A program made the position numbers and the translations under genes. A stretch of DNA of 47,970 bases, from positions 1 to 47,970 of the IMG/VR virus record IMGVR_UViG_3300046542_000171. The stretch is one strand, 5' to 3'. The notes beneath the pieces were generated by a model, which did not search any database, was not told where the DNA came from, and saw only the letters and a program-made list of their open reading frames with translations. The number at the start of each line of letters is the position of its first letter. The first letter of the stretch is position 1. Shown here one piece after another: positions 6,679 through 47,970 of this stretch. Source of the DNA: a virus.

Positions 6679-8349
6679 ATGGCGAAACGAGGCGTAAATC
6701 CACTCACGGGGAAGCGATACGAGTGGGAAGAAGAGCAGCGCCAGCTGAAGGCGCAAAACCCCGATACCGCTGAAATCCAGAAACAGATCGGGCTTCTGAA
6801 GCGCCAGAAAATGGCGATCGAGGCACGTAGCAACCTTCTTACGTTCTCGCAGTTTACGATGCCGGACCCCGAAGATCCGAACGACATCGAAAAATCGCGC
6901 TATGCAGCGGCCAACTTCCACCGCAAAGTCGCTGCCGTCCTGGACAAGTTTCTTCGCGGCGAGCTTCGTTTCTCCGATGGTCGACTATGCCATCAGTTGA
7001 TTTTCTGCATGCCGCCGAGACACGGGAAAACCGAATTGGCGACGAAGCGCCTTGTCGCGCAATTCGCTGGCAATAACCCGGACAAGGATATCATCGTTGC
7101 CGCAGCCGGTGACGACCTAGCAACAGACTTCGGCGGCGACGTCCGCGCTATCATGCACTCGCCAGCGTTCAAACAGGTCTTCCCGCAGTTCAAACTGCGC
7201 CGCGGCGGCAACGCGAAGGACAACATTCAGACGGAGCGGGGCGGACGTATCATTTTTGCGGGTCGCGGGGGCCAGATCAACGGTCGTGGCGCGCATCTAC
7301 TCGCCTGCGATGACCTGATCAAGGATGCGAACGAAGCCCGCTCGCAGACCATGCGCGATCAGATTTGGGATTGGCTCGTCAAGGTCGCGTTCTACAGGCG
7401 GATGGGCCTGCGGCTAACCTTGTTGACGATGACGCGCTGGCACTCCGACGACCCGATCGGCCGTCTTACGGACCCGGAAAACCCGCACTACAACGCGGAA
7501 GAAGCCGCCGATTGGATGATTATCCGCTTGCCAGCGCTTGCCGAAGAAGACGACCCATTGGGGCGTGTCGAAGGCGAGGCGTTGTGGCCCGAGCGTTATG
7601 ACCAAGCGTATCACCACTCCAACCAACGCCGCGACCCGCTCGGCTTCGCGGCCCTCGCGCAGCAACGGCCGACCGTGGCCGACGGCGTGCTGTTTAAGCG
7701 GGAGACAATTCGGTACTATGAACCGAAAGACCTGCCGGATGATTTGCGCATCTATTGCGCGTCTGACCACGCCGTAGCGACCGGGCAACGGAACGACTAC
7801 ACGGTGATGATCAAGGTAGGCGTTGACCGCAATAACGATATCTACGTGCTGGATTGTTTCCGGGCCAAAGTGACGTCCGACAAGGCCGTCGAAGCAATGC
7901 TGGCAATGGCGGGTGGCAAACAACGGCCGTTGCTATGGTGGGCCGAAAGAGGCCACATTTCTAAATCGATCGGCCCATTTTTGCGAAAGCGGATGCTTGA
8001 GACAGGAACCTATATCAATATTCGTGAAGTAACGCCGGCAAACGACAAGGAGCAACGAGCGCAGTCGATTGCTGCTCGTGTCGCTATGGGCAAGGTTCTG
8101 TTTCCGAAGTTCGCCGTTTGGACGGAAAAGGTCATCAACGAAATGTTGGCTTTTCCGAACGGCAATCATGACGACGCAGTCGACACCCTTGCCTATATTG
8201 GGCTTGGCCTGCAAAGCCAGTTCGCACCGGCTGCGAATTCTGATAAGAAGATAGCGACCAAGCCAGCGTTCGGCACGCTCGCTTGGGTCAAACTGGCCGA
8301 CAAATGGGCGGCGGAACAGAAGGCACTCAAGTCGGCCGGAGGATTTTAA
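6679..8349 (+). CDS. terL: Terminase large subunit
   Basis: A 556-aa packaging motor and nuclease. The ATPase domain has a Walker A-like PPRHGKT (residues 112-118) and Walker B HLLACDD (206-212). The C-terminal RNase H-fold nuclease has Asp in CASDHAVATG (about 363) and the NHDDAVDTLAY motif near residue 500. It threads DNA through the portal and cuts concatemers. The start is chosen at the ATG with AAGGA 6 bases upstream. The stop overlaps the portal start (TAATG). The small subunit is not adjacent but at 45986-46447, with fibres and lysis genes between them on the circle. Confidence 0.95.
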   Translation: MAKRGVNPLTGKRYEWEEEQRQLKAQNPDTAEIQKQIGLLKRQKMAIEARSNLLTFSQFTMPDPEDPNDIEKSRYAAANFHRKVAAVLDKFLRGELRFSDGRLCHQLIFCMPPRHGKTELATKRLVAQFAGNNPDKDIIVAAAGDDLATDFGGDVRAIMHSPAFKQVFPQFKLRRGGNAKDNIQTERGGRIIFAGRGGQINGRGAHLLACDDLIKDANEARSQTMRDQIWDWLVKVAFYRRMGLRLTLLTMTRWHSDDPIGRLTDPENPHYNAEEAADWMIIRLPALAEEDDPLGRVEGEALWPERYDQAYHHSNQRRDPLGFAALAQQRPTVADGVLFKRETIRYYEPKDLPDDLRIYCASDHAVATGQRNDYTVMIKVGVDRNNDIYVLDCFRAKVTSDKAVEAMLAMAGGKQRPLLWWAERGHISKSIGPFLRKRMLETGTYINIREVTPANDKEQRAQSIAARVAMGKVLFPKFAVWTEKVINEMLAFPNGNHDDAVDTLAYIGLGLQSQFAPAANSDKKIATKPAFGTLAWVKLADKWAAEQKALKSAGGF

Positions 8350-10546: not shown

Positions 10547-10551
10547 ATGAC

Positions 10552-10580
10552 TTGCGACGTCGGCAGACATAGAGTATTTA
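10552..10580 (+). promoter_or_regulatory. Candidate promoter of the scaffold-coat genes
   Basis: TTGCGA at 10552-10557 and TATTTA at 10575-10580 are 17 bases apart, in the only sizeable gap between portal and scaffold. The adjacent operator repeat A could regulate it. Confidence 0.5.
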
Positions 10581-24120: not shown

Positions 24121-24254
24121 TGTAGGTCGTTGTATTTAGCGACTTTTCCTTATTTCACAAGGGTCTTACGAAGGTACGTGTAGGTTGATGTAGGTCAGTG
24201 TATGGCATTTTCGGTGCGCAAACTGAGCATTTTTGCCCATCGTTTTGCGCAAAA
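24121..24254. repeat. attP right arm: TGTAGGT and GCGCAAA repeats
   Basis: Between core and integrase operon lie TGTAGGTC at 24121, three 10-bp-phased copies (TGTAGGTTGA, TGTAGGTCAG, TGTATGGC) at 24179-24206, GGTGCGCAAA at 24213-24222, and the palindrome TTTTGCGCAAAA at 24243-24254. Phased direct repeats next to the core are expected for integrase or excisionase binding. Which protein binds which repeat is unknown. Confidence 0.55.
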
Positions 24255-25595: not shown

Positions 25596-25747
25596 TTCTT
25601 TCTCTCCACATAAATCGCTAAATCAACTTCATCAATCAGTACAGGGCGGCCGCTTATGAATGTCAGTTGGCCGCTCAAGCGAAGGCGCTTGACCTTTTCT
25701 CGACTACAGCGGAGCCGGTCAGCTACCTCTTGTTCCGTCAACAGCAT
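25457..25747 (-). CDS. Excisionase-like HTH protein
   Basis: A 96-aa protein. Residues 1-50 form a MerR/excisionase-type winged helix (LTEQEVADRLRCSREKVKRL, then GRPVLIDEVDLAIYVERKK). It therefore probably bends attP DNA to favour excision, or directs integrase. The C-terminal 46 residues are Ser/Thr/Arg-rich and low complexity because they are encoded over the start of the integrase gene in another frame. GGAG lies about 7 bases before the ATG. It overlaps the upstream repressor gene by 29 bases. Confidence 0.7.
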   Translation of the reverse strand: MLLTEQEVADRLRCSREKVKRLRLSGQLTFISGRPVLIDEVDLAIYVERKKCQRQSSERPTTATTTPSGQKESEAAARAWALKTMLTRNRGSRSGS

Positions 25748-26162
25748 TATCAGTCTCCAGCATCTCCATGATTGACAGCGCGGTCTTCGTCGAGACGAGC
25801 CGGTTGACGCGCAGCCACGCTACATTCGGAGCGTTCGGGCTGACCTTGAGCTCCATCGCGGGGGTGTCCTCGTCGATCGCACCCTCGATATGATTCGGCA
25901 GCAATTCGTCTGCCGGGACGCTGAGCGCAGCCGCCAGCGCGGACAAACTGGCCGGCGTCGGCAGCGAACGGCCGCGGACGTAGACGGAGATGCTGTCACG
26001 TGGCAGGCCGGACTGGCGGGCGAGCTCGCTTTGGGTCCAGCCTTTTGAAAGCATTAAATTATAAAGCCGTTTACCGAACTGCTGTTTGGTGAGGTGCTTC
26101 GGGACCAATCTGGTCTCAGTTGGAGTGTCGCCTGAAATATGTGTTCTAACGCGGTTAGTCAT
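25719..26162 (-). CDS. XRE-family repressor
   Basis: A 147-aa protein with an HTH_3 domain at about residues 26-85 (FGKRLYNLMLSKGWTQSELA, then SGLPRDSISVYVRGRSLPTP). A C-terminal helical part (VSPNAPNVAWLRVNRLVSTK) has no Ser-Lys protease site, so RecA-triggered self-cleavage is unlikely. It is the first gene of the leftward lysogeny operon (repressor, HTH, integrase, 74-aa protein) and faces divergent early genes, the classical position of a CI-like repressor. AGGGG precedes the ATG. A palindrome in its leader may mediate autoregulation. Confidence 0.82.
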   Translation of the reverse strand: MTNRVRTHISGDTPTETRLVPKHLTKQQFGKRLYNLMLSKGWTQSELARQSGLPRDSISVYVRGRSLPTPASLSALAAALSVPADELLPNHIEGAIDEDTPAMELKVSPNAPNVAWLRVNRLVSTKTALSIMEMLETDNAVDGTRGS

Positions 26163-31324: not shown

Positions 31325-31942
31325 GTGGCAAGATCCGAAGACGTAAAAACCATCGAACTCCGTTGGGCATTCACCAACGGCCTTTTCGAACTCCAGACGA
31401 CGCAGGCCGGCAAGAAGCAGTGGAACGTCACTGGCCTCTATGCCAAGAGCGCCGATGTCTCCAAGCTGGAAGCTGCAGCCCTGGAAGCGGCCGTTGCCGA
31501 GTGGGGCGACAAGGCCAAGCAGATGATCAAAGACGGCCTGATCCACTCGCCGTTCCTGGACGGCGACGGGCCGCAGGGCAAGTCGAAGAAGACCGGCGAA
31601 CCGCATGCCGGCTTCCCCGGCCATAAGTTCATCCGCTTCATCTCCGGCGAAGAGTACCGCCCGAAGCTGTTCAATCGTCAGCTCCTGCCGATCACCAGCA
31701 AGAACGACTTCAAGTCCGGCGATTACGGCTTTGGTGTCGTGAACGCCTTCACGTGGGAGAACAAGGAGAAGGGCAAGGGCATCTCCTTCGGTATCTCCAT
31801 GATCCAGAAGTCGCGTGATGGCGAAAGCCTTGGCGGCTCCGGCGGCGCGGATCCGGAAAGCTACTTCGAAAAGCTCGAGGACGCAGGAGACGCGCCCGAT
31901 ACCACGAAAAGCGGCGCAGGCGCAGCGGGCCTTTTTTCGTAG
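31325..31942 (+). CDS. ssDNA-binding protein, DUF2815
   Basis: A 205-aa protein with a GTG start (AAAGGAAG upstream). IHSPFLDGDGPQGKSKKTGE, then FIRFISGEEYRPKLFNRQLL and FKSGDYGFGVVNAFTWENKE, match the DUF2815 OB-fold ssDNA-binding family, related in role to T7 gp2.5. The C-terminal 45 residues are acidic and Gly-rich and finish GAAGLFS. As in SSB proteins such a tail would recruit partner enzymes. The stop codon lies inside operator-like repeat C. Confidence 0.82.
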   Translation: MARSEDVKTIELRWAFTNGLFELQTTQAGKKQWNVTGLYAKSADVSKLEAAALEAAVAEWGDKAKQMIKDGLIHSPFLDGDGPQGKSKKTGEPHAGFPGHKFIRFISGEEYRPKLFNRQLLPITSKNDFKSGDYGFGVVNAFTWENKEKGKGISFGISMIQKSRDGESLGGSGGADPESYFEKLEDAGDAPDTTKSGAGAAGLFS

Positions 31943-32017: not shown

Positions 32018-32278
32018 ATGAGTGAACCGACAATCGGCCACAACTCCGTCGCTGGCGATCAGCTCAAATCCTTCGTCGAGCGTATCGAGCGGCTGCAGGA
32101 AGAGAAGCAGACGATCGCCGACGATATCAAGGATGTCTTCGGAGAAGCAAAGGGAATGGGCTTCGACCGCAAGGTCATGAACGAGATGCTGCGCCTTCGA
32201 AAGATGGACCAGATGCAGCGCCAAGAGTGGGAGGCCCTGCGCGACACCTACGGTCACGCGCTCGGTATCTTCGGATGA
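32018..32278 (+). CDS. GapR-like nucleoid protein (DUF2312)
   Basis: An 86-aa protein matching alphaproteobacterial GapR almost throughout: [40 protein letters not shown], then [17 protein letters not shown]. GapR forms a coiled-coil clamp on overtwisted, AT-rich DNA ahead of polymerases and assists topoisomerases. A phage copy could support its own replication or compete with the host protein. It adds the C-terminus ALGIFG. It couples to the exonuclease by ATGA; GAGG lies before the ATG. Confidence 0.88.
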
Positions 32279-37692: not shown

Positions 37693-38307
37693 TCAACCTG
37701 AATATCGTCGGCTACTGGTAGCCATCCATCCGGAAGGGCGTCGATCTGGGCGAGGGTCTTGCGGAAAGCCGTCCGATGCGGTCGCGGCGCCTCTGGTGCC
37801 CGATGCGGTCGCGGCGCCTTGGTCGCCCGATGCGGTCGCGGCGCCTTGGTCGCCCGATGCGGTCGCGGCGCCTTGGTAGCCCGATGCGGTCGCGGCGCCT
37901 CTGGTGCCCGATGCTAGGGCTCCTTCATTATCGCCAGTCACGACCGGACCTTCGGACCACTTCGCGCGGTCGAAGACGTATTTGACCGCAGCCGCGATCA
38001 ATTCAGGGATCTTCAGTTCCGCCTTGATCGTGATTTCAGCCGACGCGATCTTGGTATCCGTTCCTTCCCGATGGGTCTTGCCGCCCATCTCGACGATGGC
38101 GTAACGGCTGGTGGCTGGCGGGTAGTAATTGAATACGTTCAGCGGGTGTTCGCAGGCATGAAAGCCCGATACGCACGTCTCTACTTCGCCATCGTGCTTG
38201 AACGTCTTCCCGATCTCAAACTGATAGCCGCGGCAAGTCATGTCCGCGTTGAAACCCTTATACGCTACGATGACTTCTGTATTTTCGGTCTTCTTGGTCT
38301 TGGCCAC
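37693..38307 (-). CDS. DUF7666-type protein with 9-residue repeats, frame-disrupted
   Basis: A 204-aa frame with GTG start (AAGAGG upstream). Residues about 12-110 (VIVAYKGFNADMTCRGYQFE, GFHACEHPLNVFNYYPP) match DUF7666. Five copies of a GAATASGDQ-like 9-residue repeat follow (about 134-178), which usually form a beta-solenoid before a conserved C-terminus. Here the last 27 residues (DPRPDRRPSGW-type) look like out-of-frame reading, and the +1 frame enters the Nmad5-like gene. Thus a frameshift, or a repeat-mediated deletion, probably ended this gene early. Confidence 0.65.
   Translation of the reverse strand: MAKTKKTENTEVIVAYKGFNADMTCRGYQFEIGKTFKHDGEVETCVSGFHACEHPLNVFNYYPPATSRYAIVEMGGKTHREGTDTKIASAEITIKAELKIPELIAAAVKYVFDRAKWSEGPVVTGDNEGALASGTRGAATASGYQGAATASGDQGAATASGDQGAATASGTRGAATASDGFPQDPRPDRRPSGWMATSSRRYSG
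37773..37907. repeat. Five tandem 27-bp repeats
   Basis: Units start CCGATGCGGTCGCGGCGCCT and differ only in the last few bases (TGGTCGC, TGGTAGC or CTGGTGC). They encode the 9-residue repeats of the DUF7666 gene on the minus strand. Copy number is likely variable. Confidence 0.9.
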
Positions 38308-38358
38308 TTTGGAAATCCTCTTGTCGAAAGTTTATGTAAAATTGTCACGATTGTTTGG

Positions 38359-38387
38359 TTGACAATGACATACAACTGACATACACA
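38359..38387 (+). promoter_or_regulatory. Promoter with embedded tandem operator (repeat E)
   Basis: TTGACA at 38359-38364, a 17-base spacer, TACACA at 38382-38387. The spacer holds GACATACA-ACT-GACATACA (38367-38385), the reverse complement of repeat A's pattern. An operator within the promoter implies repression. It drives the run of small genes from 38421. Confidence 0.65.
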
Positions 38388-38420
38388 AAAGACAACGTCA
38401 AGACCTAAAAGGAGCCACAC

Positions 38421-38642
38421 ATGGCCAAGCGGCCAACTAAAAAGATCATCGCATTCCGGCTGCCGGGCGATCTCATGAAGACCTTGGGTACGAAGGCGAC
38501 GCGGCAGCATGTATCGCGCAACAAGCTCGTCGAATTTATTCTGCGAGACTATTGCGGCCGTACTGACAAGGACCTGCGCGACCTCATCAAAAACCCGCAG
38601 GAGGAAGAGCGCGATGACCAAACCATCGATCTGTTCGCTTGA
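38421..38642 (+). CDS. Ribbon-helix-helix-like regulator
   Basis: A 73-aa protein; AAAAGGAG before the ATG. Residues 8-47 (KIIAFRLPGDLMKTLGTKAT, then VSRNKLVEFILRDYC) give the strand-helix-helix of CopG/Arc-type repressors. It is the first gene after a promoter carrying an operator, so it may regulate itself. An acidic tail ends QTIDLFA: this matches the shared C-terminal tail and also resembles a beta-clamp-binding Q-x-x-D-L-F peptide. Confidence 0.65.
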   Translation: MAKRPTKKIIAFRLPGDLMKTLGTKATRQHVSRNKLVEFILRDYCGRTDKDLRDLIKNPQEEERDDQTIDLFA

Positions 38643-38856
38643 TGATCTGCGCCGCGAGCATCCGACGCTAGGTGCCGCAATCTATGCCTACCAGCCCGGC
38701 GAGGACGTCACGCTGGAGGTTCATACGCCGGACGGCCAGATGTTTTCCTGGAGCGGTTCGACCGAAGCCGACGTCCTCTCGCAGGCATTCCCGCCGGACC
38801 TCGAAACCAACACACCGGCCATCGAGGAACCGACACCGACCAACATTTTCGACTAG
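38614..38856 (+). CDS. Small acidic early protein, unknown
   Basis: An 80-aa protein overlapping the preceding gene by 29 bases; GAGGAAGAG upstream of the ATG. Residues 5-60 look folded (LRREHPTLGAAIYAYQPGED, then VTLEVHTPDGQMFSWSGSTE). The rest is acidic and Pro-rich, ending TPTNIFD. No family is recognised. It shares the hydrophobic-Phe-X terminus with its upstream partner. Confidence 0.6.
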   Translation: MTKPSICSLDDLRREHPTLGAAIYAYQPGEDVTLEVHTPDGQMFSWSGSTEADVLSQAFPPDLETNTPAIEEPTPTNIFD

Positions 38857-38869
38857 CGAGGAATTCGAC

Positions 38870-39166
38870 ATGAAAGCCATTCTTGCATTGCTTCTCTCAG
38901 CGGCGCCGGCCCTTGCCGCGCCCGCCGACTACCTGAAGGCCGCAGCGGTCATGATCGTGGCCAACGCCGAATGCGACATGCGCTACCGCGACGTGGAGAT
39001 CAACACCAGCATTCTCCGGGGCGGGGCCCAATACGGGCTGGCGCCCGCGCAAGCGACACGCGTTGCCATCATCGCGGCTTTCGAGCTCCGGCAGCGGCTG
39101 CGGGCAGTCAACGGAATGCGGAGCTTCTGCCGGGAAGTCTATCTGGTTTCCGGCGAGCCTCTTTGA
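38870..39166 (+). CDS. Small exported protein, unknown
   Basis: A 98-aa protein with a clear Sec signal peptide (MKAILALLLSAAPALAAPAD, cleavage likely after ALA at 17). The mature part of about 80 residues has two Cys (near 37 and 83) that could pair in the periplasm, and helices (AQATRVAIIAAFELRQRLRA). AGGA precedes the ATG. A secreted phage product in an early operon might modify the envelope of the infected cell or lysogen; that is inference. Confidence 0.65.
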   Translation: MKAILALLLSAAPALAAPADYLKAAAVMIVANAECDMRYRDVEINTSILRGGAQYGLAPAQATRVAIIAAFELRQRLRAVNGMRSFCREVYLVSGEPL

Positions 39167-39201
39167 TTGAAATCACGACCGACAACAAAGGACATTCGAC
39201 A

Positions 39202-39366
39202 ATGTTTGAGCGCTTGAAACGTATATTCAGCCGGGAGCCACGAACGTGGTCGATCATCGGTGAGTGGGATCAGGTCAGGAGCCGAGACGGCAAGATCATC
39301 GCCCACTTCTACATTCTGCAAGATCAGTACGGAAACATAAAGCAGACGAAGGTGGGTATGAAATGA
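39202..39366 (+). CDS. 54-aa protein, unknown
   Basis: A short basic protein (FERLKRIFSREPRTWSIIGE, then KIIAHFYILQDQYGNIKQTK) with predicted beta strands. AAAGGA lies 9 bases upstream, and the stop overlaps the next start (ATGA). No family is recognised. Confidence 0.5.
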   Translation: MFERLKRIFSREPRTWSIIGEWDQVRSRDGKIIAHFYILQDQYGNIKQTKVGMK

Positions 39367-39617
39367 CCTACACCTGCGACCTCTATCACGACACTGACGG
39401 CCAGTGCTGCGACGAACATCAATCGTGCTGGCACAACGCGCCCGTCCGGGTGATCCCGCTCGAGCCCAAGCACATCGACGACGAGCTCGTCACGCAGATG
39501 TCCCTGCGTCTGTTGCTCGTGCTGGCGATCATGTCCGGCCTGATCGGGCTCGGCACCGCCGTGCGGCTGGACCACCACTACAAGGACCGCGGCGTAATCG
39601 AACAGGAACAGTACTGA
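39363..39617 (+). CDS. Membrane protein with Cys/His-rich N-terminus
   Basis: An 84-aa protein coupled by ATGA. The N-terminal 30 residues hold Cys and His (CDLYHDTDGQCCDEHQSCWH), a possible metal site. One hydrophobic span follows (about 46-67, LRLLLVLAIMSGLIGLGTAV) and a charged C-terminus (HHYKDRGVIEQEQY). Past the TGA stop the same frame continues open for 60 codons as a Gly/His/Asp-rich sequence. The role is unknown. Confidence 0.55.
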   Translation: MTYTCDLYHDTDGQCCDEHQSCWHNAPVRVIPLEPKHIDDELVTQMSLRLLLVLAIMSGLIGLGTAVRLDHHYKDRGVIEQEQY

Positions 39618-39618
39618 A

Positions 39619-39807
39619 ATGGACATAGCGGTGATCATGGAGGCCATGACGCACCCGGATCTGGAGATCATGGACACGGTCCTGGCGACGGCGATCATGG
39701 AAACCCTGACGATCAGGGCCATGGAAACGACCCTGGCCAGCGCGGCGGAAGCCATGGCGCCGGAAACAACGGGAATGGCGGCAAAGGAAAAGGCCACTAA
39801 CCCGTAA
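39619..39807 (+). CDS. Met-rich 62-aa frame, doubtful
   Basis: Starts 2 bases after the previous stop. The product is Ala/Thr/Met-rich (MDIAVIMEAMTHPDLEIM, then TVLATAIMETLTIRAME) with about ten Met residues. Codon third positions are GC-rich, as in neighbouring genes, which favours this frame. The competing frame of the previous gene reads as a Gly/His-rich tail. One of the two is probably real; sequence alone does not settle which. Confidence 0.35.
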   Translation: MDIAVIMEAMTHPDLEIMDTVLATAIMETLTIRAMETTLASAAEAMAPETTGMAAKEKATNP

Positions 39808-39872
39808 GTCAACCGGGCTAGCTGCGTGTATCGCCGCGCTGGCCCTAACTCTGAAATAGGAGGGAAGAGCGA

Positions 39873-40319
39873 ATGAACGACAAAGATAAAGCCGTAGACA
39901 CGTCAGGAGACGATGAGGCTCCGGTGGCGTGGCAGCACAGGACCATGGACGCTCGCTTTGAGAACTGGTCCGAATGGCGCGAAGGGAAAGCCAACCTCTC
40001 GGCGTCAAGCCCGATCTTATTCGAGGAGCGCGCCCTATACGCCCGACCACAGTCAGCGGCCGTGAGGGATTACGTGGTCCCGATCCACAAGGACGGAAAC
40101 TATGTCTTCATCGACGGTCCCGGCGATGTCGAGCTAGATCACGGCGGAAAGATGCGATCAGTCGTAGAAGCGGCCACGCGATACGTTGCCTCTGTGAACG
40201 GCGGTCCTGCTGCCTTCTATGCCTCCGACGAGGAGTGGAGGGCATACGATATCGAGAAGGAACAGGCGTTTGACGCTCTCAGCGCCGCCCTTCACTCAAC
40301 GCAGGAGGCGTCCGAATGA
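39873..40319 (+). CDS. Early protein, unknown
   Basis: A 148-aa acidic protein with an ideal AGGAGG ribosome site. After a charged start (NDKDKAVDTSGDDEAPVAWQ), residues about 20-60 resemble short phage regulatory proteins (SEWREGKANLSASSPILFEE, then RALYARPQ). A beta-helical part follows (DYVVPIHKDGNYVFIDGPGD). It couples by ATGA to a tiny membrane peptide. No family is assigned. Confidence 0.6.
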   Translation: MNDKDKAVDTSGDDEAPVAWQHRTMDARFENWSEWREGKANLSASSPILFEERALYARPQSAAVRDYVVPIHKDGNYVFIDGPGDVELDHGGKMRSVVEAATRYVASVNGGPAAFYASDEEWRAYDIEKEQAFDALSAALHSTQEASE

Positions 40320-40402
40320 CCCACGATTGCATTATCGCCGGCCTCGTTGTTCTGGCTCTCGCGGCCTGGACGGCGACGCTGTTCTACGTGGGGCCGTTCT
40401 GA
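40316..40402 (+). CDS. 28-aa single-span membrane peptide
   Basis: Starts in the previous stop (ATGA) and ends in the next start (TGATG). MTHDCIIAGLVVLALAAWTA leads into TLFYVGPF: one membrane helix. Overlaps at both ends argue for real translation. Function unknown. Confidence 0.55.
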   Translation: MTHDCIIAGLVVLALAAWTATLFYVGPF

Positions 40403-40695
40403 TGAAGAAGAAAACTGTCGTCACGAACAAGCTGGCGAACGCGATCCGCGAGGCCAGGCTATCGGGGATGACGTACCGGGCGATCATGCTGGAGTTCGAC
40501 GTCAGCGAAAGCACGGCCCGTTTCTACAGCAGCGACGCCAACGCCGATAAGATGCGCAAGTACGAGCAGGACCGTTACCGCCGCATGATGGCCGATCCGG
40601 AGCGCTATGCGGCCACGATAGAAAAGCGCCGGGAACGCATCCGGGCCTATCACGAACGGATGCGCCAAGAGGCACGAAACGCGAAAGCCGTGTAG
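40402..40695 (+). CDS. HTH protein with basic helical tail
   Basis: A 97-aa protein. Residues 10-37 (LANAIREARLSGMTYRAIML, then EFDVSESTARFY) read as a recombinase-like helix-turn-helix. The C-terminal 55 residues are a long basic helix (RYRRMMADPERYAATIEKRR). It is likely a DNA-binding regulator, and its position makes it one candidate for an early or middle activator. TGATG couples it to the membrane peptide. Confidence 0.55.
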   Translation: MKKKTVVTNKLANAIREARLSGMTYRAIMLEFDVSESTARFYSSDANADKMRKYEQDRYRRMMADPERYAATIEKRRERIRAYHERMRQEARNAKAV

Positions 40696-40703
40696 GATTT
40701 GGC

Positions 40704-40733
40704 TTCCAATTCTGCCTGACAATGGCATACAGT
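40704..40733 (+). promoter_or_regulatory. Weak promoter / GGCATACA site
   Basis: TTCCAA, 18 bases, TACAGT. The -35 is poor, but TGACAATGGCATACA (40717-40731) matches 14 of 15 bases at 38360-38374, so a shared regulator may act here. Confidence 0.4.
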
Positions 40734-40756
40734 AAGAATTTCCCATGAAAACAGAA

Positions 40757-40780
40757 ACGGCGGATCTTTCGACCCGCCGT
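40757..40780. terminator. Hairpin, possible minus-strand terminator
   Basis: ACGGCGG/CCGCCGT 7-bp stem with a 10-base loop. Followed on the minus strand by TTCTGTTTTC; no T-run on the plus strand. Confidence 0.35.
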
Positions 40781-40823
40781 CCCTGACCAACAATCAATAC
40801 CCATTCGACAAGAGGTACGGGTT

Positions 40824-41135
40824 ATGAATACTAAATCTGGCTCTCCCAATCAAGGGGATACTGGATATTGCGGCTTTGTTGTCGGCCAGCATGTGGTTTG
40901 CGTCGACACTATTCCGGAAAACAATACTAAAGTCATCCAGATACTCGGACGCGGCGGCACTGCGCATCTGCCAGAGCTGAACCGCGTCTATACGGTGCGG
41001 GCTATCTACACCAACCCTGTTACCGGCCGCGTCAGTATGCGGCTTAAAGAGTTGGTCAACATGCCGCTTCCGAGCATCGCTGGCATGTGGGAGCCCGGTT
41101 TCCCGGTGACAATGTTCCGGCCTCTGCAAAGCTGA
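40824..41135 (+). CDS. Small beta protein, unknown
   Basis: A 103-aa protein (AGAGGT upstream). The sequence GFVVGQHVVCVDTIPENNTK, then RGGTAHLPELNRVYTVRAIY, resembles an SH3-like fold seen in many uncharacterised phage proteins. It stands alone between two structured intergenic regions. No function can be assigned. Confidence 0.6.
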   Translation: MNTKSGSPNQGDTGYCGFVVGQHVVCVDTIPENNTKVIQILGRGGTAHLPELNRVYTVRAIYTNPVTGRVSMRLKELVNMPLPSIAGMWEPGFPVTMFRPLQS

Positions 41136-41161
41136 AGGTCGAAGACTTCATGCAGTCGAAA

Positions 41162-41178
41162 ACTCCTGTCGAAGGAGT
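41162..41178 (+). promoter_or_regulatory. SD-sequestering hairpin
   Basis: ACTCCT/AGGAGT, six perfect pairs around a 5-base loop. It buries the AAGGAG ribosome site of the next gene (start 41185). A smaller stem (AGGTC/GACTT) precedes it. This could be an RNA thermometer or another translational switch. Confidence 0.5.
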
Positions 41179-41184
41179 GCCGGC

Positions 41185-41574
41185 ATGACCGGCGCCGTTT
41201 ACTACAGGTTCGAGGACAAACTCGTCGGGTCCGGCGGCTTTGACATATACGGCGATTACGTCCCCGGCCCCTCTTACGTCAAAGTGGAGATTGTCACCTT
41301 CGAAGTCGATCGGCTGACGCCCAAAGGCGCTTGGGTATGGTTGCCAACCCGTGGGAGCTACATGCCGATGACAAGGCGCTTCGTCTGCAACGGCTGGTAC
41401 AACAAATACGCCAACCCGACGATCGAGGGCGCTCGCGCGGATTTCATCGCCCGCAAGAAACGCCTCATTGCGATCCAGACACGCCGCGTCCGCGACGCGC
41501 AGGAGGCGATTGATCTGGCAGAAGCAAACCGCGAACGCTCGCTGTACAGGGCGTCGATAAAGGCGCCGGCATGA
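41185..41574 (+). CDS. Conserved-type phage protein, unknown
   Basis: A 129-aa protein. Beta strands (AVYYRFEDKLVGSGGFDIYG, then VKVEIVTFEVDRLTPKGAWV) are followed by a basic helix (IEGARADFIARKKRLIAIQT). This pattern, a beta domain followed by a FIARK helix, is common in phages of GC-rich hosts but is uncharacterised. Translation is probably controlled by the hairpin that masks its ribosome site. Confidence 0.6.
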   Translation: MTGAVYYRFEDKLVGSGGFDIYGDYVPGPSYVKVEIVTFEVDRLTPKGAWVWLPTRGSYMPMTRRFVCNGWYNKYANPTIEGARADFIARKKRLIAIQTRRVRDAQEAIDLAEANRERSLYRASIKAPA

Positions 41575-41595
41575 TGTCTTTGTCTGGTGTGTCGG

Positions 41596-41624
41596 TTGAC
41601 AGCGCCAGACAACAGACGTAACTT
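41596..41624 (+). promoter_or_regulatory. Promoter of the primase operon
   Basis: TTGACA at 41596-41601, 17 bases, TAACTT at 41619-41624. It lies about 40 bases before the 41666 gene and would drive the PD-(D/E)XK and primase genes. Confidence 0.6.
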
Positions 41625-41665
41625 GTGTCCTATACGTAACCAATACAAATAAAGGACAGCCGTAT

Positions 41666-41866
41666 ATGGCGAAATCTCAACGTGAGAGGACGCGGGATTA
41701 TCTCGCGCGCACGCGCCGCAAGGCGCAAGCATTCGATAAACTGATGATAGAACTGAATATCCTCAGTGACCTCATGAACAAAGAGCGTGAACAACCACGT
41801 GGCTACAGCGCGTTCGACGCCGCGATTGAACGGGCCGCGAAAGCCATAGAGGAGCCGCAGGAATGA
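41666..41866 (+). CDS. Small helical protein, unknown
   Basis: A 66-aa charged helical protein (SQRERTRDYLARTRRKAQAF, then FDAAIERAAKAIEEPQE); AAAGGA upstream. It overlaps the next gene by 4 bases and begins the operon that contains the primase. No family is recognised. Confidence 0.5.
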   Translation: MAKSQRERTRDYLARTRRKAQAFDKLMIELNILSDLMNKEREQPRGYSAFDAAIERAAKAIEEPQE

Positions 41867-42303
41867 AGGCGATCGACACAGTTTATCGCGGGCATAAGTT
41901 TCGCTCGCGCTTGGAAGCGCGTTGGGCTGTTTTCTTCGACACCGCGAAGCTGACGTGGACATATGAGGAAGAGGGCTATCAACTCCCTTCTGGTTGGTAT
42001 CTGCCGGACTTTCGGATACTTGAGTTTGACATGTTCATCGAAATAAAACCGGTGGATTTCAACGCGAAAGATAAAACCTCGCGCGAATACATTTTGTGCC
42101 AGGAACTAGCTATCGCAACGGGCAAGGCTGTATGCCTTAACGCGGGCGAGCCTTTTGGCGTGAAGGGTTTCTCTATCACGCCCACGGCCAGCAGCGCGCG
42201 CGCTATCGATTTGCTGAAGGCTCATTTTGAAAATACAAGCTATAGCGCCGCGGCTACCGCTGCCCGGCAAGCGCGCTTTGAACACGGGCATTCAGGTGCG
42301 TGA
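41863..42303 (+). CDS. PD-(D/E)XK nuclease-like protein
   Basis: A 146-aa protein. YRGHKFRSRLEARWAVFFDT (residues 8-27, with Glu), YLPDFRILEFDMFIEIKPVD (about 46-65, with Asp and E-I-K) form the core of a restriction-endonuclease-like site seen in many phage proteins, related to TnsA/VRR-type nucleases. It may process DNA ends or flaps at the origin or during recombination. ATGA and TGATG overlaps join it to the small helical gene and the primase. Confidence 0.75.
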   Translation: MKAIDTVYRGHKFRSRLEARWAVFFDTAKLTWTYEEEGYQLPSGWYLPDFRILEFDMFIEIKPVDFNAKDKTSREYILCQELAIATGKAVCLNAGEPFGVKGFSITPTASSARAIDLLKAHFENTSYSAAATAARQARFEHGHSGA

Positions 42304-44429
42304 TGAACATGGAAAATCAAAATGCTTTCCAGAGGTTCCACGCGCTCGGCTACAAACGCTTTACGCCCGTCGTTCCGCCTGATGCGAAGATTTACGAAAA
42401 GTCGGCCCTTAACCGCCAGCTTGGCAAGGACAAGGACCCGCGCGGCAAATCGGCCGGGGTGAAGAATGGCAACGGCGAGTGGTACGGTTTCGATTTCGTC
42501 CACTACGAGAACGACGAGCTTGACTTGGATCGCTGGCACCGCCTGGGAGCGGGTGTCGGCCTGAAGACGGGTGACGGCCTTGTCATGATTGATGCGGACA
42601 CGACGAACCTGGAGTGGGCCGCAATCATCGTCGAGGAAGTCAAGAAGCTGATCCCGCTTTCATCGGTACGCGTCGGCCAGCATCCGAAGGCCGGCTACAT
42701 CGTCCGCACTGACAAGGACTTCAAATATACCTGCCTGCCCTTCGGCGACAGAAACGATAAGGGCGCCCAGACAGAGCGCGTCGAGATCCTGGCCGAGGGC
42801 AAGTTCTTCGTGGCGCACGGCGTCCACCCGAAGACCAGAAAACCCTACTACTGGCCGAACGGCATTCCTGCCTATGACGATCTACCGTTCGTCTCGAGCG
42901 CCGATCTGCTGGCCCTCATGGAGCGTCTGCGCGCGAGGTTGCCGGCAGCAGCACCAATCACCCGCGAGGGCGGCGGAACGGCCGCTGCCAGCCAAGCCAG
43001 CCTGAAGGGCGATCTCGAAAAGGTCCGCAAGGCGGTACGGGCAACGCCGAATACCCTGTCTAATTTCCCTACCCGCGAGGACTATCGCAACTACGGTTAC
43101 GCGATCAAGGCTGCGCTGCAAGACCACGCGCAAGAGGCGCTCGAGCTATTCGAGGAATGGTGCGAGCAATGGGTAGGACCCGGCGGCGAAATAAACGAGC
43201 CTGACACGATCGCGTCGGATTGGCGCCGCATGAAGCCTCCATATCGCCGCGGCGCGGCATGGCTGTACGAGCTCGCAGAGAAATACTCCGGCGGGGCTTA
43301 TGGCTTGGTCGATGTTTGGTTCGATGTCCTGCCCGAAGACACCACAAGCCTGTTTGATACCGGAGGCCGCGAGGACGCGAAACAGCAGGCCGCCAAGTTC
43401 AAGCTGCTAGACTTCGACGAGGCGGCCGATACGGCAATTACCGACATGGCCCCGCCGCTTATCAAGGGGTTATTGGATAAAGGAACCATGAGCGTTGTTT
43501 ACGGTGACAGCAACGTCGGTAAAACGTTCGTCGCAATGGATATAGCCTATCACATCGCAACGGGGGGCAGATATGCCGGCATGAAGACGGCGCACGCCCT
43601 GGTCGTCTATGTGGCTATGGAGGGCGGGCGCGGCGCACGGCGGCGCCTGGCAGCATTGCGGGACAAGTTCAAGCCTGAACATCGGCCCTTGTTCAAGCTG
43701 TTGTCGCAGCCCGTCAACATGCGCAATCCTGAAGTCGATATGGGCGCTTTCAAGGCGTGCTTGACGGCGATCGGGGCGCCTGTCGGGCTGGTGGTCATCG
43801 ATACCCTGTCGCGCGCCATGGCCGGCGGAGATGAAAATGGTTCTGTCGATATGGGCGCATTCATCAAGAATGTGGACGCCGTGCGCGCTGTCACTCAAGC
43901 GCACATCATGGTCGTGCACCACACGGGCAAGGACAAGGCCAAGGGCGCGCGCGGGCACTCGTCATTGCGTGCGGCGACCGATACCGAGCTAGAGGTGGCT
44001 GAGGGCGTCATCTCGGCCACCAAGCAACGCGATCTCGATAAGGCGTGGTCGTCACCCTTCAGGCTGGAGGTCCGGACGCTTGGCGTGGATGCTGACGGCG
44101 ATCCTGTGACGTCGTGCACAGTGCGGCTTGACAGCGTTACGGCTGTTAGTCGGAGGGAGCCGACGGAAGGCGAGGCGGCGGTTCTGGATGCTATCGCGGT
44201 ACTCTGCGAAACGTCGTCGCGGCCGGATAAGGGCGTAAGGACGAAGGACCTGGAAGCATGGTGCAAGGACAACTTGTCCTCGATGTCGCGCGATACACTG
44301 AACCAACATCTGCGCGGTTTGAGAGGAAAACGGCTAGTCTCACAAGAGACGCGCGGGTATTGGCGTCCGACCGCCGTTTCAAATGGTGAGGATTTGTTAG
44401 GAGATTGTGAGGAAAACGTATTCTCATAG
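42303..44429 (+). CDS. Primase-polymerase / RepA-like helicase
   Basis: A 708-aa replication initiator-type protein. The N-terminal Prim-Pol domain (about 10-210) has catalytic Asp97 and Asp99 (VMIDADTT) and conserved His near 172-175 (FVAHGVHPKT). A PriCT-type linker follows (DYRNYGYAIKAALQDHAQEA). The AAA/RecA-like helicase has Walker A GDSNVGKT (401-408), Walker B LVVIDTLSRA (about 500) and VVHHTGKDKAKG. A C-terminal winged helix may bind DNA. The last codons carry the first origin iteron, and the protein ends EENVFS. The start chosen is the TGATG overlap. Confidence 0.9.
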   Translation: MNMENQNAFQRFHALGYKRFTPVVPPDAKIYEKSALNRQLGKDKDPRGKSAGVKNGNGEWYGFDFVHYENDELDLDRWHRLGAGVGLKTGDGLVMIDADTTNLEWAAIIVEEVKKLIPLSSVRVGQHPKAGYIVRTDKDFKYTCLPFGDRNDKGAQTERVEILAEGKFFVAHGVHPKTRKPYYWPNGIPAYDDLPFVSSADLLALMERLRARLPAAAPITREGGGTAAASQASLKGDLEKVRKAVRATPNTLSNFPTREDYRNYGYAIKAALQDHAQEALELFEEWCEQWVGPGGEINEPDTIASDWRRMKPPYRRGAAWLYELAEKYSGGAYGLVDVWFDVLPEDTTSLFDTGGREDAKQQAAKFKLLDFDEAADTAITDMAPPLIKGLLDKGTMSVVYGDSNVGKTFVAMDIAYHIATGGRYAGMKTAHALVVYVAMEGGRGARRRLAALRDKFKPEHRPLFKLLSQPVNMRNPEVDMGAFKACLTAIGAPVGLVVIDTLSRAMAGGDENGSVDMGAFIKNVDAVRAVTQAHIMVVHHTGKDKAKGARGHSSLRAATDTELEVAEGVISATKQRDLDKAWSSPFRLEVRTLGVDADGDPVTSCTVRLDSVTAVSRREPTEGEAAVLDAIAVLCETSSRPDKGVRTKDLEAWCKDNLSSMSRDTLNQHLRGLRGKRLVSQETRGYWRPTAVSNGEDLLGDCEENVFS

Positions 44430-44553
44430 AAATCAATGACTTAGAGCATTGTGAGGAATTGTGAGGAATTGTGAGGATCGAGCAAGTCATTTTGTGAGGA
44501 TTGTGAGGACACCCCTTTAGGGTCCTCACAACTCACAAGACCGCGATTGTGAG
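44405..44553. other. ori: Iteron array, putative replication origin
   Basis: Six perfect TTGTGAGGA 9-mers start at 44405, 44449, 44459, 44469, 44492 and 44501. An inverted copy lies at 44523-44531 and partial copies at 44532 and 44547. The last direct and the inverted copy form a 10-bp inverted repeat (TTGTGAGGAC/GTCCTCACAA). Three copies are 10 bp apart, one helical turn. Directly after the primase-helicase gene, this is the best candidate origin. Confidence 0.65.
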
Positions 44554-44585
44554 TTTTGTATATTGGCATACAAAAACGGAAGACA

Positions 44586-44612
44586 AAGAAAAGGCGCCAC
44601 AAACGGGCGCCT
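44586..44612 (-). terminator. Terminator of the minus-strand operon
   Basis: Perfect AGGCGCC/GGCGCCT stem (44592-44612), followed on the minus strand by TTTTCTTT. It ends the operon that starts near 45870 and protects the iterons from transcription. Confidence 0.8.
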
Positions 44613-44640
44613 GTTTCAGAGCAAGAAGGAAGAGGCCGAC

Positions 44641-44712
44641 TTAGCGGCGGGGCGGTGCGGCCGCCCATATGAGGGCGACGGCAGCCAGAATAGCGAAGAC
44701 TAAAGCGATCAT
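44641..44712 (-). CDS. 23-aa membrane peptide
   Basis: Starts in the stop of the 155-aa gene (ATGA) and ends 29 bases before the terminator. MIALVFAILAAVALIWAAAP, then PRR: a single membrane helix with a basic end. Last gene of the operon. Too short for statistics; coupling and composition support it. Confidence 0.45.
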   Translation of the reverse strand: MIALVFAILAAVALIWAAAPPRR

Positions 44713-45176
44713 TTGTTGATATCAGCGACGATCGCTTCGATGACGCTATCGGACGCGATACCCTGGTCGGTTGTCGTGCGCGCCCATACGGTCAGCCCTG
44801 CAAAGTCCTTGTCGACCTTCTCGCCCTTTTCGGCGAGCTTGTCGGCCAGCCAGTCGGAAACGATCCAGTGTTCGAACACTTCGCGCTGATAGGGCTCGAT
44901 GTTGTATTCCTCGCAAAGATCCTGCCAAGCGCATGCGGCGGATAGATCATAGGCGCCAACCTCTTTATGGACCGCGATGCCGCCCATAGCCTTCCAGCCT
45001 TCTTGTATGGCCGCCTCTTCCCAATCATCGATAGGGCAGGCGAGTTCGAAAGCCGCTTCGGCGATGTCGCCAAGCTCTTCGTTCGTGCCGCCAAAGCCTT
45101 TGGCGAGTTCTGAGACGAGAGTGGAAACGCAGTAGTGGACTTCGCGGGAGACGAGATTTTCGGCTGTGATGGTCAT
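44709..45176 (-). CDS. Conserved plasmid/phage protein, unknown
   Basis: A 155-aa protein; AAGGAACA precedes the ATG. SREVHYCVSTLVSELAKGFG at the N-terminus and EHWIVSDWLADKLAEKGEKV, DFAGLTVWARTTTDQG near the C-terminus are hallmarks of an uncharacterised family on alphaproteobacterial plasmids and phages. Its accessory-element distribution suggests a role against host interference or in maintenance, unproven. It is the third gene of the operon. Confidence 0.7.
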   Translation of the reverse strand: MTITAENLVSREVHYCVSTLVSELAKGFGGTNEELGDIAEAAFELACPIDDWEEAAIQEGWKAMGGIAVHKEVGAYDLSAACAWQDLCEEYNIEPYQREVFEHWIVSDWLADKLAEKGEKVDKDFAGLTVWARTTTDQGIASDSVIEAIVADINK

Positions 45177-45228
45177 GGTGTTTGTTCCTTGTCGGTTTGT
45201 GATGATTGTCGGTCGTGAAATCAGACAG

Positions 45229-45534
45229 TTAAGGCAAACGCGCGTGGCGGCGCTCGTACGCTTCGACGAAGTCGCCAAGAGTTGTGAGGCGATAGTTTCC
45301 TGTATCGTAGACGTAGAGGATTGTTGACGCGTAGGTGTCTCCACTGTTGCTATAGCTTGCGACAATGGCGCCGTGCTTGTCGTAGACGCATTCGACACCG
45401 TGGTTGTCTAGATGCCGGTCAATTGCGGTCATGCCTTTGCCCTGGTGAATGCACTTGCGGACTTTTACGAGAGACGAGCGCTCTACCGTAGGAAAGGCGT
45501 GCTCGAGAGACTTGAGAGATGGTGCGCGGCGCAT
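45229..45534 (-). CDS. Small protein, unknown
   Basis: A 101-aa protein; AAGGAG lies 8 bases before the ATG. A basic helical start (SLKSLEHAFPTVERSSLVKV) is followed by a beta part (GVECVYDKHGAIVASYSNSG, then STILYVYDTGNYRLTTLGDF). It appears in the same operon context as the 155-aa accessory protein. No function can be assigned. Confidence 0.6.
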   Translation of the reverse strand: MRRAPSLKSLEHAFPTVERSSLVKVRKCIHQGKGMTAIDRHLDNHGVECVYDKHGAIVASYSNSGDTYASTILYVYDTGNYRLTTLGDFVEAYERRHARLP

Positions 45535-45604
45535 GTGCGTAACTCCTTGTCGAGTTGATTGCTGGCAGTTGGATAAGGGCGACATGAGCGCCCTTGCCGA
45601 AATG

Positions 45605-45826
45605 TCAGAGGGCCGGATTTTCTTTGACGGCGTAGGATGTCAGGCGGTCAGCAAAGATGACCCAAGAACGGCCGTCAGGGCCGACAGCGTCAAAGCATGC
45701 GCCCATAGGCGAAGCGCTTACACGGCCTTGGCGCATAGTTCCCTCGAGTGTTCCCCACTCCGGGCCGTGGCCACACGCCTTGAGCCATTCGGGCTTTACT
45801 TTCAGAATGTAGATTGTTTCGGCCAT
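45605..45826 (-). CDS. Small protein, unknown
   Basis: A 73-aa beta-rich protein (MAETIYILKVKPEWLKACGH, then SWVIFADRLTSYAVKENPAL), first gene of the minus-strand operon, with AAGGAA upstream. It starts about 45 bases downstream of the operator-bearing promoter. No family is recognised. Confidence 0.6.
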   Translation of the reverse strand: MAETIYILKVKPEWLKACGHGPEWGTLEGTMRQGRVSASPMGACFDAVGPDGRSWVIFADRLTSYAVKENPAL

Positions 45827-45871
45827 TTCGGCGTTCCTTGTTTCGGTGCGTTGTTATGCGGTTGGAGCCCT

Positions 45872-45901
45872 GTTGTATGTCGGTTGTATGTCACTTGTCA
45901 A
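45872..45901 (-). promoter_or_regulatory. Operon promoter with tandem operator (repeat F)
   Basis: Minus-strand TTGACA (45901-45896), then ATACAA or TACAAC after 17 or 18 bases. TGTATGTC-GGT-TGTATGTC at 45874-45892 fills the spacer, the same design as 38359-38387. It is divergent from the small terminase gene. Confidence 0.65.
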
Positions 45902-45917
45902 GAGGGTCTAATCGACA

Positions 45918-45934
45918 AATGTTTCGGGAACATA
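45918..45934. promoter_or_regulatory. Operator-like inverted repeat before terS
   Basis: AATGTT-TCGGG-AACATA, arms ATGTT/AACAT, in the divergent region about 50 bases before the TTG start. A candidate binding site for a regulator of the small terminase gene. Confidence 0.4.
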
Positions 45935-45985
45935 TTTTTCGTGGTAAAGATTTGAGCCCGATCGGCAATCAGGAGATTATGGAAC

Positions 45986-46447
45986 TTGCCCAAAAAAGGC
46001 GGTACTCTGACACCACAAGAGCGTGTCTTGGCTAAGAACTATGCGGTGACCGGAAATAGGGCCTATTCGGGCCAGATGGCGGGCTTTAGCGATACTTCCG
46101 GCGCAGCGTCGAAAGCGCTCGCCAGGCCGCAGGTGCAGGCCGAGATACGCAAGCAACAGCTCGAATTACTGTTTAGCCAGGTGCTGCCGCTGGCCGTAAA
46201 GGTCCACATGGAGATCATCGGCGACCCGAAAGCCCCTGCAGGGGCGCGCGTCCAGGCCGTAAAGCTGGCCTACGATCGCACGCTAGGCCAGCAGGAAGGC
46301 GCGGAAGGCAAAGAGCCGCACGAGATGACAAGCGAAGAGATCGCCAAGGCGATCGCGCAGCTCGAGCAAGTCGCGTTTGAACGGGCCAAACCGGTCGAAA
46401 ACACGCAAAGTGCGCAAGAGGCGCGCAACGACGACGTATTTTCGTAA
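45986..46447 (+). CDS. terS: Terminase small subunit
   Basis: A 153-aa protein starting at TTG with AGGAG 10 bases upstream. The N-terminal domain (TLTPQERVLAKNYAVTGNRA, then YSGQMAGFSDTSGAASKALA) is the helix-turn-helix that recognises the pac or cos site. The middle is helical (LPLAVKVHMEIIGDPKAPAG) for ring assembly, and the acidic C-terminus, which contacts the large subunit, ends NDDVFS. It is separated from the large subunit by the late promoter, fibres and lysis genes. Confidence 0.82.
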   Translation: MPKKGGTLTPQERVLAKNYAVTGNRAYSGQMAGFSDTSGAASKALARPQVQAEIRKQQLELLFSQVLPLAVKVHMEIIGDPKAPAGARVQAVKLAYDRTLGQQEGAEGKEPHEMTSEEIAKAIAQLEQVAFERAKPVENTQSAQEARNDDVFS

Positions 46448-46665
46448 TGAAATCAACGCGGTTTACTGTATGAGTGATACTGTTGGCGCGCTCGACGAGC
46501 GTCGAGGCGGGTATCGGGGTGACCCGGATTGCGGACCCGGCCCCCGGCACCGGTTCGCGCGCAATCGCGGAAACGGCATCAGCACCGCATAGAAAAATTC
46601 GCCCCAAAAATCGAAGCGGAACGCCTGTCCGGGGCTGTCAGCCTTGTATTCCGACAGTGTTCGTG

Positions 46666-46709
46666 ACAAAAACAAAACGCCCGTCTCGGCCTCTACTCCG
46701 AAACGGGCG
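46666..46709 (-). terminator. Minus-strand intrinsic terminator
   Basis: CGCCCGT/ACGGGCG stem (46678-46684 with 46703-46709), extended by TCGG/CCGA. On the minus strand it is followed by TTTTGTTTTTG. No minus-strand gene lies just upstream, so it may block antisense transcripts. The rest of the gap 46448-46737 holds only a doubtful 40-codon frame at 46470. Confidence 0.6.
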
Positions 46710-46737
46710 CTAACCCCAACCGCAATGTGAGTGCGAT

Positions 46738-47307
46738 ATGGACGACCACTATCTACCACCTGTCGAGTTTCTTCGCGAGTGCTTTTCCTACGACCCGGCG
46801 ACCGGCGATATACGCTGGAAAGCGCGCCCGCCGCATCACTTCTCGCGAGACGCTGATTTTCGGACCTGGAACGCGCAAAACGCCGGGAACTTGGCCTTTC
46901 AGGGTCGCGAAGACGACGGGTACGGTCGCAGTGAGTTCCGCTACGAGGGTAAACGCTACAGGACGCGGTCAAGCCGCGTCGCTTTCAAGCTCATGACTGG
47001 CGAAGAACCGGAGCAGGTCGATCATTGGAACGGTGACGAAACCGACGACAGATGGGAAAACCTGCGCGCGGCCACCAATACCGACAACGCTCGTAACAAG
47101 ATCGGCAAAGCTGGCAAGGTTCTGCCAAAAGGCGTGTTCCTTGAAGGCCGAAAGTTCGTCGCGTCCTTGAACGTCGGCAGTAGGCGGCATCGGATCGGCA
47201 CCTACGACACGCCGGTAGAGGCCCACGCGGCTTATTGCGCGGAGGCGAAGGAGAGGCACGGAGAGTTCTTCAATCCGGGGCCGCACCGGCCCTCTGTTTT
47301 CGATTGA
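46738..47307 (+). CDS. HNH endonuclease with AP2 domain
   Basis: A 189-aa homing-type endonuclease. The N-terminus FLRECFSYDPATGDIRWKAR is typical. The HNH core is QVDHWNGDETDDRWENLRAA (about 97-116). The AP2 DNA-binding domain (GVFLEGRKFVASLNVGSRRH, then IGTYDTPVEAHAAYCAEAKE) occupies about 132-178. It lies beside the terminase gene, where HNH proteins sometimes stimulate packaging cleavage; it may instead be selfish. It ends RPSVFD, one of the shared tails. Confidence 0.85.
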   Translation: MDDHYLPPVEFLRECFSYDPATGDIRWKARPPHHFSRDADFRTWNAQNAGNLAFQGREDDGYGRSEFRYEGKRYRTRSSRVAFKLMTGEEPEQVDHWNGDETDDRWENLRAATNTDNARNKIGKAGKVLPKGVFLEGRKFVASLNVGSRRHRIGTYDTPVEAHAAYCAEAKERHGEFFNPGPHRPSVFD

Positions 47308-47374
47308 ATTGTCCGCTTTCACGGCGTACAGTGCCCAACAATCCAACAGCGCCAACCCGAAAAGGGCGCAACCC

Positions 47375-47578
47375 ATGACGACGCAGGACCCCGCCCTCGC
47401 AAACGACCTTTTCGCCTCCCTGGACGATTGCTGCTACGTCCGCCAAAGCATCGTGAACGGCCGAAATGGGTGGATCCTGCTCGATTGTGACGGCGAGGTT
47501 GAAGTCTTCAGCGAGGACCGCAGCCAAGTGTTTTTCTACGCCAGCAAGCACGCCCTGAAGGTCATTCGGCCGCACTGA
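47375..47578 (+). CDS. Small protein before the late promoter, unknown
   Basis: A 67-aa protein; AAAAGGG lies upstream of the ATG. ALANDLFASLDDCCYVRQSI, then NGWILLDCDGEVEVFSEDRS: acidic, probably beta. It sits immediately before the late promoter, the position of the antiterminator Q in lambdoids, but the sequence gives no support for that function. Confidence 0.5.
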   Translation: MTTQDPALANDLFASLDDCCYVRQSIVNGRNGWILLDCDGEVEVFSEDRSQVFFYASKHALKVIRPH

Positions 47579-47598
47579 TCAGCCCCACGGAACACCGC

Positions 47599-47627
47599 TT
47601 GACAGCCGACAGACATAGACATACAGT
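47599..47627 (+). promoter_or_regulatory. Late promoter candidate (pR'-like)
   Basis: Consensus TTGACA at 47599-47604, 17 bases, TACAGT at 47622-47627. It is the last promoter before the late operon and is followed by a terminator about 70 bases beyond the predicted start. Confidence 0.65.
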
Positions 47628-47633
47628 CCAGTC

Positions 47634-47737
47634 CTAGCAGAACGGCCTTTTTCTCCCTGCTTTTCAGTCGTCCTGCCCTCATGCGATGACCCTCCCAAGT
47701 GCAAGCTCGCCAATCCTCCTTGGCGGGCTTGTTTTTT
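47634..47737 (+). ncRNA. Candidate short leader RNA (6S-late-like)
   Basis: A transcript from the 47599 promoter would end at the 47703-47737 terminator, giving about 100 nt with no obvious ORF. Such an RNA either terminates or is extended into the late genes. Position-based prediction only. Confidence 0.4.
47703..47737 (+). terminator. Strong intrinsic terminator before late genes
   Basis: 11-bp stem AAGCTCGCCAA/TTGGCGGGCTT (one G-T pair), 6-base loop, then GTTTTTT. The late operon begins about 65 bases downstream, so passage through it must be regulated or leaky. Confidence 0.85.
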
Positions 47738-47768
47738 GCTTGTCTGTTCTGTAGGTTGCAGCATCAGA

Positions 47769-47970
47769 CATCGTCACGCACGAAGTGAGGCCGACGCCGC
47801 GCAATGAGCTACCCTGACAAGCCCGTTATAACCTATTCGTACACCGGGTTTCAGGTCGGCCAGGGCAACAACTCGTTCCCCGGAACGCAGATGGACAGCG
47901 ACATCGCGTCGCTCGAGAATGCGGCCTCGACGATGGTCGATTTCGTCAAGCTTTTTGCCAACCCCGACGG
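47769..47970. repeat. Right copy of the terminal overlap
   Basis: Same 202 bases as the window start except A at 47843 instead of G at 75. It supplies the upstream context of the first fibre gene, including the terminator and TGTAGGTT at 47750-47757. Confidence 0.9.
47804..47970 (+). CDS. Tail fibre, 5' part of second copy (partial)
   Basis: The first 55 codons of the gene at 36-1067, running off the window. Codon 14 is ACC (Thr) rather than GCC (Ala). The change lies in the tail-anchor segment. Confidence 0.85.
   Translation, partial: MSYPDKPVITYSYTGFQVGQGNNSFPGTQMDSDIASLENAASTMVDFVKLFANPD

Follow-up and report, generated by a model that had tools for sequence, protein, structure and literature searches.

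The window, by which we mean the whole stretch of DNA analysed, is the 47,970-base record of a rhizobial-type temperate phage (IMGVR_UViG_3300046542_000171), with a terminal repeat of 202 bases in which 47769-47970 duplicates 1-202 apart from a single mismatch (A at 47843, G at 75). The record therefore represents a circle of 47,768 bases, and the end repeat confirms the original prediction in placing the circle junction between a terminator and the late genes. The mismatch suggests strain variation in the assembled population. On the + strand, approaching the junction, lie a TerS-like gene (45986..46447), identified through relatives and a weak Terminase_2 match that falls below the cut-off (PF03592, E 5e-4); an HNH endonuclease gene (46738..47307; phrog_99, E 3e-42); a 67-aa open reading frame with no family assignment (47375..47578); a promoter, P1, of the form TTGACA-17-TACAGT with 10 of 12 consensus matches (47599..47627); and an intrinsic terminator, T (47701..47737), detected by scan and by similarity to a relative, with a stem at 47701-47732 (13 pairs in the terminator scan, G-U counted) and a U-run at 47732-47737. 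Past T, a tail-fibre-like gene begins at 47804 and continues to the end of the record (47804..47970; 47804 equals 36, and the complete copy occupies 36-1067). It is the first of a run of late genes on the + strand that extends to about 24032, and no internal + strand terminator of strength comparable to T was found in that region. The expectation of some 24 kb of late genes on one strand thus holds as a statement about gene order, but the run need not be a single transcript, because the gene at 10605 is preceded by a promoter-like element of its own, ATGACT-17-TAGAGT (10549-10577), kept at the matching place in three relatives (N65, L005 and L024).

Taken as a pattern, P1 is within chance: positions 38000-47970 contain four promoter-like sites where shuffled sequence gives 3.7 +/- 2.0 (for terminator-like sites the figures are 20 and 10.9 +/- 3.2), so the case for P1 must rest on conservation. 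The terminator and promoter sequences, used as exact patterns, matched nothing in viral and genome collections. Relatives were gathered from IMG/VR and GTDB genomes through TerS and TerL alignments. The nearest named one is the temperate Rhizobium phage RHph_N65 (N65; L007 in our set), for which an integrase and a cro-like repressor are annotated. Its genome carries TTGACA-17-TACAGT at 38023-38051 and, at 38125-38154, a terminator 91% identical to T, the stretch between the two having diverged. The HNH genes of the window and of N65 (38205-38750 in the latter), 40% identical, flank the cassette on opposite sides, as expected of mobile free-standing endonucleases.

In 20 distinct phage records the interval from the TerS-like gene to the late genes holds a promoter-leader-terminator cassette, with 21 cassettes in all: the window, N65, L004, L005, L021, L022, L024 (with two), L028, L052, L053, L056, L058, L060, L063, L065, L073, L083, L099, L100 and L106. 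In L083, L099, L100 and L106 the cassette was placed by its position upstream of TerL, the TerS gene itself not being located. The L021 cassette also occurs in the genome of Nitratireductor soli (L042), and scans of L016, L018, L029 and L041 found no cassette. The TerS-like gene is the sole cassette neighbour common to all loci, as follows from most loci having been collected through TerS. The N65 match and the recurrence of the cassette in the same interval across 20 records remove the doubt about P1, and the near-consensus promoter followed by an intrinsic terminator at 47599-47737, as first described, is confirmed as real. It is very improbable that T just closes the TerS transcription unit, with P1 a minor or decayed promoter and the CU-richness between them functionless. 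In favour of this reading, T follows the TerS unit and P1 alone is within chance by pattern count, but P1, T and the motifs described next recur together in diverged phages.

If transcription starts about 7 nt past the -10 of P1, P1 and T would delimit an RNA of about 104 nt (47634..47737, + strand), a candidate anti-Shine-Dalgarno (anti-SD) small RNA. Three anti-SD-like motifs lie within it on the same strand: CUCCC (47653..47657, predicted unpaired at 0.64), CCCUCCC (47690..47696, 0.99) and, in the terminator loop, CCUCC (47715..47719, 1.0). Leaders of the relatives share almost no common sequence, yet CCUCC or CUCCC appears in most, with CUCCUCCUCCC in L052 the longest form. The motif first came to attention in an initial nine leaders, where TCCTCC and CTCCC, pooled, occur 17 times against 5.4 in shuffles (maximum 14). 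A further 12 leaders, collected without regard to the motif, served as the test: ten contain CCTCC, and together they hold 16 motifs where 2000 dinucleotide shuffles average 5.2 and never exceed 14. The reverse complement, GGAGG, occurs once in the new set, and two motifs were counted in 23 control terminators taken from these phages. CCTCC is absent from the leaders of L004, L022, L028, L053, L100 and the first of the two L024 cassettes (L024a). Most motifs are predicted to be unpaired in the ensemble, at 0.8-1.0 where the leaders average 0.37-0.57. The energy of pairing with a generic SD was dropped as a test, most leaders doing no better than their shuffled versions, and the anti-SD claim therefore draws on how often the motif occurs, how unpaired it is and how the controls compare. 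By a count made by hand, strong SDs precede 14 of 45 early genes in N65 and three of 24 late genes, a difference that is suggestive and for which no significance is claimed.

Small RNAs of this kind are known from alphaproteobacterial hosts. The ar14/NfeR1 RNAs consist of three hairpins in which CCUCCUCCC is conserved while the stems have diverged, and they pair at translation starts (PMC10746234). With these and the other CCUCCUCCC ('cuckoo', CcsR) sRNAs, the phage leaders have in common a length of about 100-120 nt, diverged stems and unpaired anti-SD motifs, one of which lies in the loop of the terminator (PMC10746234). In permissive Rfam searches, in which every match stayed below curated cut-offs, ar14 (RF02344) was the best match in L005 (E 4.3e-4, 29.5 bits), N65 (1.7e-3, 26.7 bits) and L052 (2.8e-3, 25.8 bits), each match covering the model from end to end and coinciding exactly with the predicted transcript; the curated cut-off is 58.8 bits, which no relative reaches. 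L024 gave weak matches to sX13, mmgR, ar14 and CcsR1, and L023 gave mmgR and SorX at about 2e-3. For a control terminator, no match had an E below 1. The window itself has no ar14 match and no Rfam family at gathering level, the permissive search returning only suhB/mmgR at E 2.6. Where ar14 has an unpaired CCUCCUCCC in each of three hairpins, the window carries the shorter CUCCC, CCCUCCC and CCUCC, and it differs from the host RNAs as well in having fewer motifs and in being phage-borne, at the entrance to a late operon. The phage leaders thus appear to resemble ar14/NfeR1 in kind, a resemblance for which we claim no family membership. Nothing published on RHph_N65 or about anti-SD sRNAs of phages turned up in the literature that was searched.

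Between T and the first late gene lies a second element, P2 (TTGTTT-17-TAGGTT, 47729..47757, + strand), a candidate late promoter whose -35 overlaps the U-run of T. It is weak, matching the sigma-70 consensus at 6 of 12 positions, and it recurs in the same register in relatives. The pattern TTG-N3-N17/18-TA-N3-T, in fixed register with the U-run, was formulated on a first set of gaps between terminator and start codon, where it occurs in 8 of 10 (1-6% in shuffles of each). The new set, a fairer test, has it in 7 of 12 gaps (shuffle mean 0.38, maximum 3). The -10 reads TATTGT, TATAGT, TATCGT or TAGGTT and mostly lies 29-40 nt from the start codon, 52 in the window. The first late gene of L016 and that of L023 also have a P2-like element in front of them, and no cassette lies immediately upstream of it; in L023 a P-T-like unit stands about 500 bp further upstream, on the far side of another gene. 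Because the P2-like element is conserved, even where no cassette lies directly upstream, a late start at P2 is judged the more likely. The window's P2 -10, TAGGTT, coincides with TGTAGGTT, a motif that recurs elsewhere without a -35. Since the -10 in the window's group is weak and sits within TGTAGGTT, this part of P2 may be an operator instead of a promoter. Two general roles for TGTAGGTT, as a -10 and as leftward promoters, were rejected on the same ground: most of its other copies, inspected by eye, have no -35 17-18 nt upstream. The words TGTAGGTT and TGTCTG also make up a near-perfect palindrome, ATATGTAGGTTATGTCTGTC...GACAGACATAACCTACATAT, at 10801-10847 of L048, from Methylopila capsulata.

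L024 carries its two promoter-terminator cassettes at 7189-7296 and 7634-7758, and about 25 nt is all that separates the end of the first from a gene, too little to hold a P2. Such proximity, and the weak U-tracts at the terminators of L004, L005 and L028, would suit a leader that acts in cis, the CU-rich RNA folding or binding a factor (30S subunit, Rho or Hfq) so that read-through of T tracks the state of the cell, with neither a phage antiterminator nor action in trans. We consider such attenuation improbable: an alternative antiterminator fold was neither found nor conserved, and what is conserved is a short motif, not a fold.

P1 and P2 are both overlapped by copies of a motif, TGTAKGT, that is distributed over the whole phage. 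A TGTATGT site on the - strand (47619..47625) covers the P1 spacer and -10, and a TGTAGGT site on the + strand (47750..47756) covers the P2 -10; we describe the first as operator-like and the second as operator- or stoperator-like. The window contains 22 TGTAKGT sites where 2.5 are expected, among them those at 4721, 10528, 10539, 24121-24195, 26244, 26270, 31949, 38368, 38379, 45874, 45885, 47619 and 47750. N65 contains 17 where 2.45 are expected, and 15 of these 17 are noncoding although noncoding sequence makes up 7.6% of the genome (p 2e-15). The sites are asymmetric, concentrated in intergenic and promoter regions and often arranged as direct repeats of 10-11 bp; they occur in the gap between the repressor and cro genes, at early promoters, at P1, past T, ahead of the gene at 10605 and in the gap that precedes the integrase. 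Intergenic sites are mostly oriented with transcription and promoter sites mostly against it, with one exception (15754 in N65). Mycobacteriophage L5 and other cluster A phages have more than twenty asymmetric stoperators, in promoters and short intergenic spaces (PMC9283540). The sites here are like those of L5 in being many, asymmetric and placed in promoters and intergenic gaps, and they differ in site sequence, host and repressor family. We read TGTAKGT as a phage-wide, stoperator-like site, and the HTH_3 repressor (25722-26162) is the leading candidate for the protein that binds it.

The original prediction read the locus by the logic of lambda pR'-6S RNA-tR', and this interpretation is partly supported. 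The order on which it was founded, a strong promoter, a short RNA, an early intrinsic terminator and then late genes, is the arrangement that marks a lambda Q module, and it is widely conserved, at the late-operon entrance in 20 records. On such a reading P1 would be the late promoter, its transcripts would stop early at T until a phage antiterminator so far unrecognised permitted read-through, and the short RNA would be a by-product or also an sRNA like StxS. No more than tens of bases separate T from the first late gene, and the window has no other near-consensus promoter ahead of that gene. A second -10-like TACAG, seen by eye 4-8 nt past the -10 in some relatives only (L004, L005 and L024), recalls the sigma-dependent pause at pR'. 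StxS of the Stx phages, an sRNA from the same place, is a precedent for a terminated pR' transcript that can act in trans (PMC7873438). Other observations speak against such a switch. As the original prediction states, no Q homologue is recognisable: profiles for the Q antiterminator families PF03589 and PF06530 matched nothing in seven phage records, while control genomes did match, and a Q homologue was set aside as the regulator. The two antiterminators proposed by position were also rejected, since neither is conserved in N65, which has a Phage_gp49_66 gene in place of the 67-aa protein and no counterpart of the HTH protein at 40402. The locus differs from the lambda module further in having a promoter-like element past the terminator, one that is found also without P1 and T directly upstream; in the operator-like site that overlaps P1, whereas pR' is constitutive; and, compared with lambda 6S RNA and StxS, in anti-SD motifs kept across diverged leaders. 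On balance, control of the late genes by antitermination at T, with or without an sRNA role for the short RNA, seems less likely than not, although if it does operate, the 20 aligned loci mark where to seek a new antiterminator.

The reading we prefer, and hold at about an even chance, is that the window encodes an anti-SD small-RNA gene beside a separate late promoter. P1 and T would be the two ends of this gene, and an RNA of about 100 nt begun at P1 would stop at T. Its two or three unpaired CCUCC or CUCCC motifs would pair with the SDs of host mRNAs, early phage mRNAs or both and lower their translation, an action like that of the host sRNAs ar14/NfeR1 and CcsR. T would also keep transcription from P1 and from the upstream TerS unit out of the late operon, and late transcription would begin at P2, a weak promoter that has its -35 over the U-run and probably depends on an activator. 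In a lysogen, binding at the TGTAKGT sites would shut P1 and the P2 region, the regulator probably being the HTH_3 repressor. To our knowledge, late control in alphaproteobacterial phages without a Q gene has been little studied. We propose tentatively that a family of temperate alphaproteobacterial phages carries, at the late-operon entrance, a counterpart of the host anti-SD sRNAs, made on induction so as to move translation off host and early-phage mRNAs, beside a late promoter overlapping its terminator. Should the RNA be produced and work in trans, such phages would carry their own form of a host class of regulatory RNA, placed at the commitment to late expression.

Two further features of the window were observed. 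A GapR-like DNA-binding protein is phage-encoded at 32042-32275 (PF10073, E 1.6e-30). A terminator-like hairpin of 15 pairs on the minus strand (40752-40785) lies within the + strand middle region and is conserved at 31607-31640 in N65.
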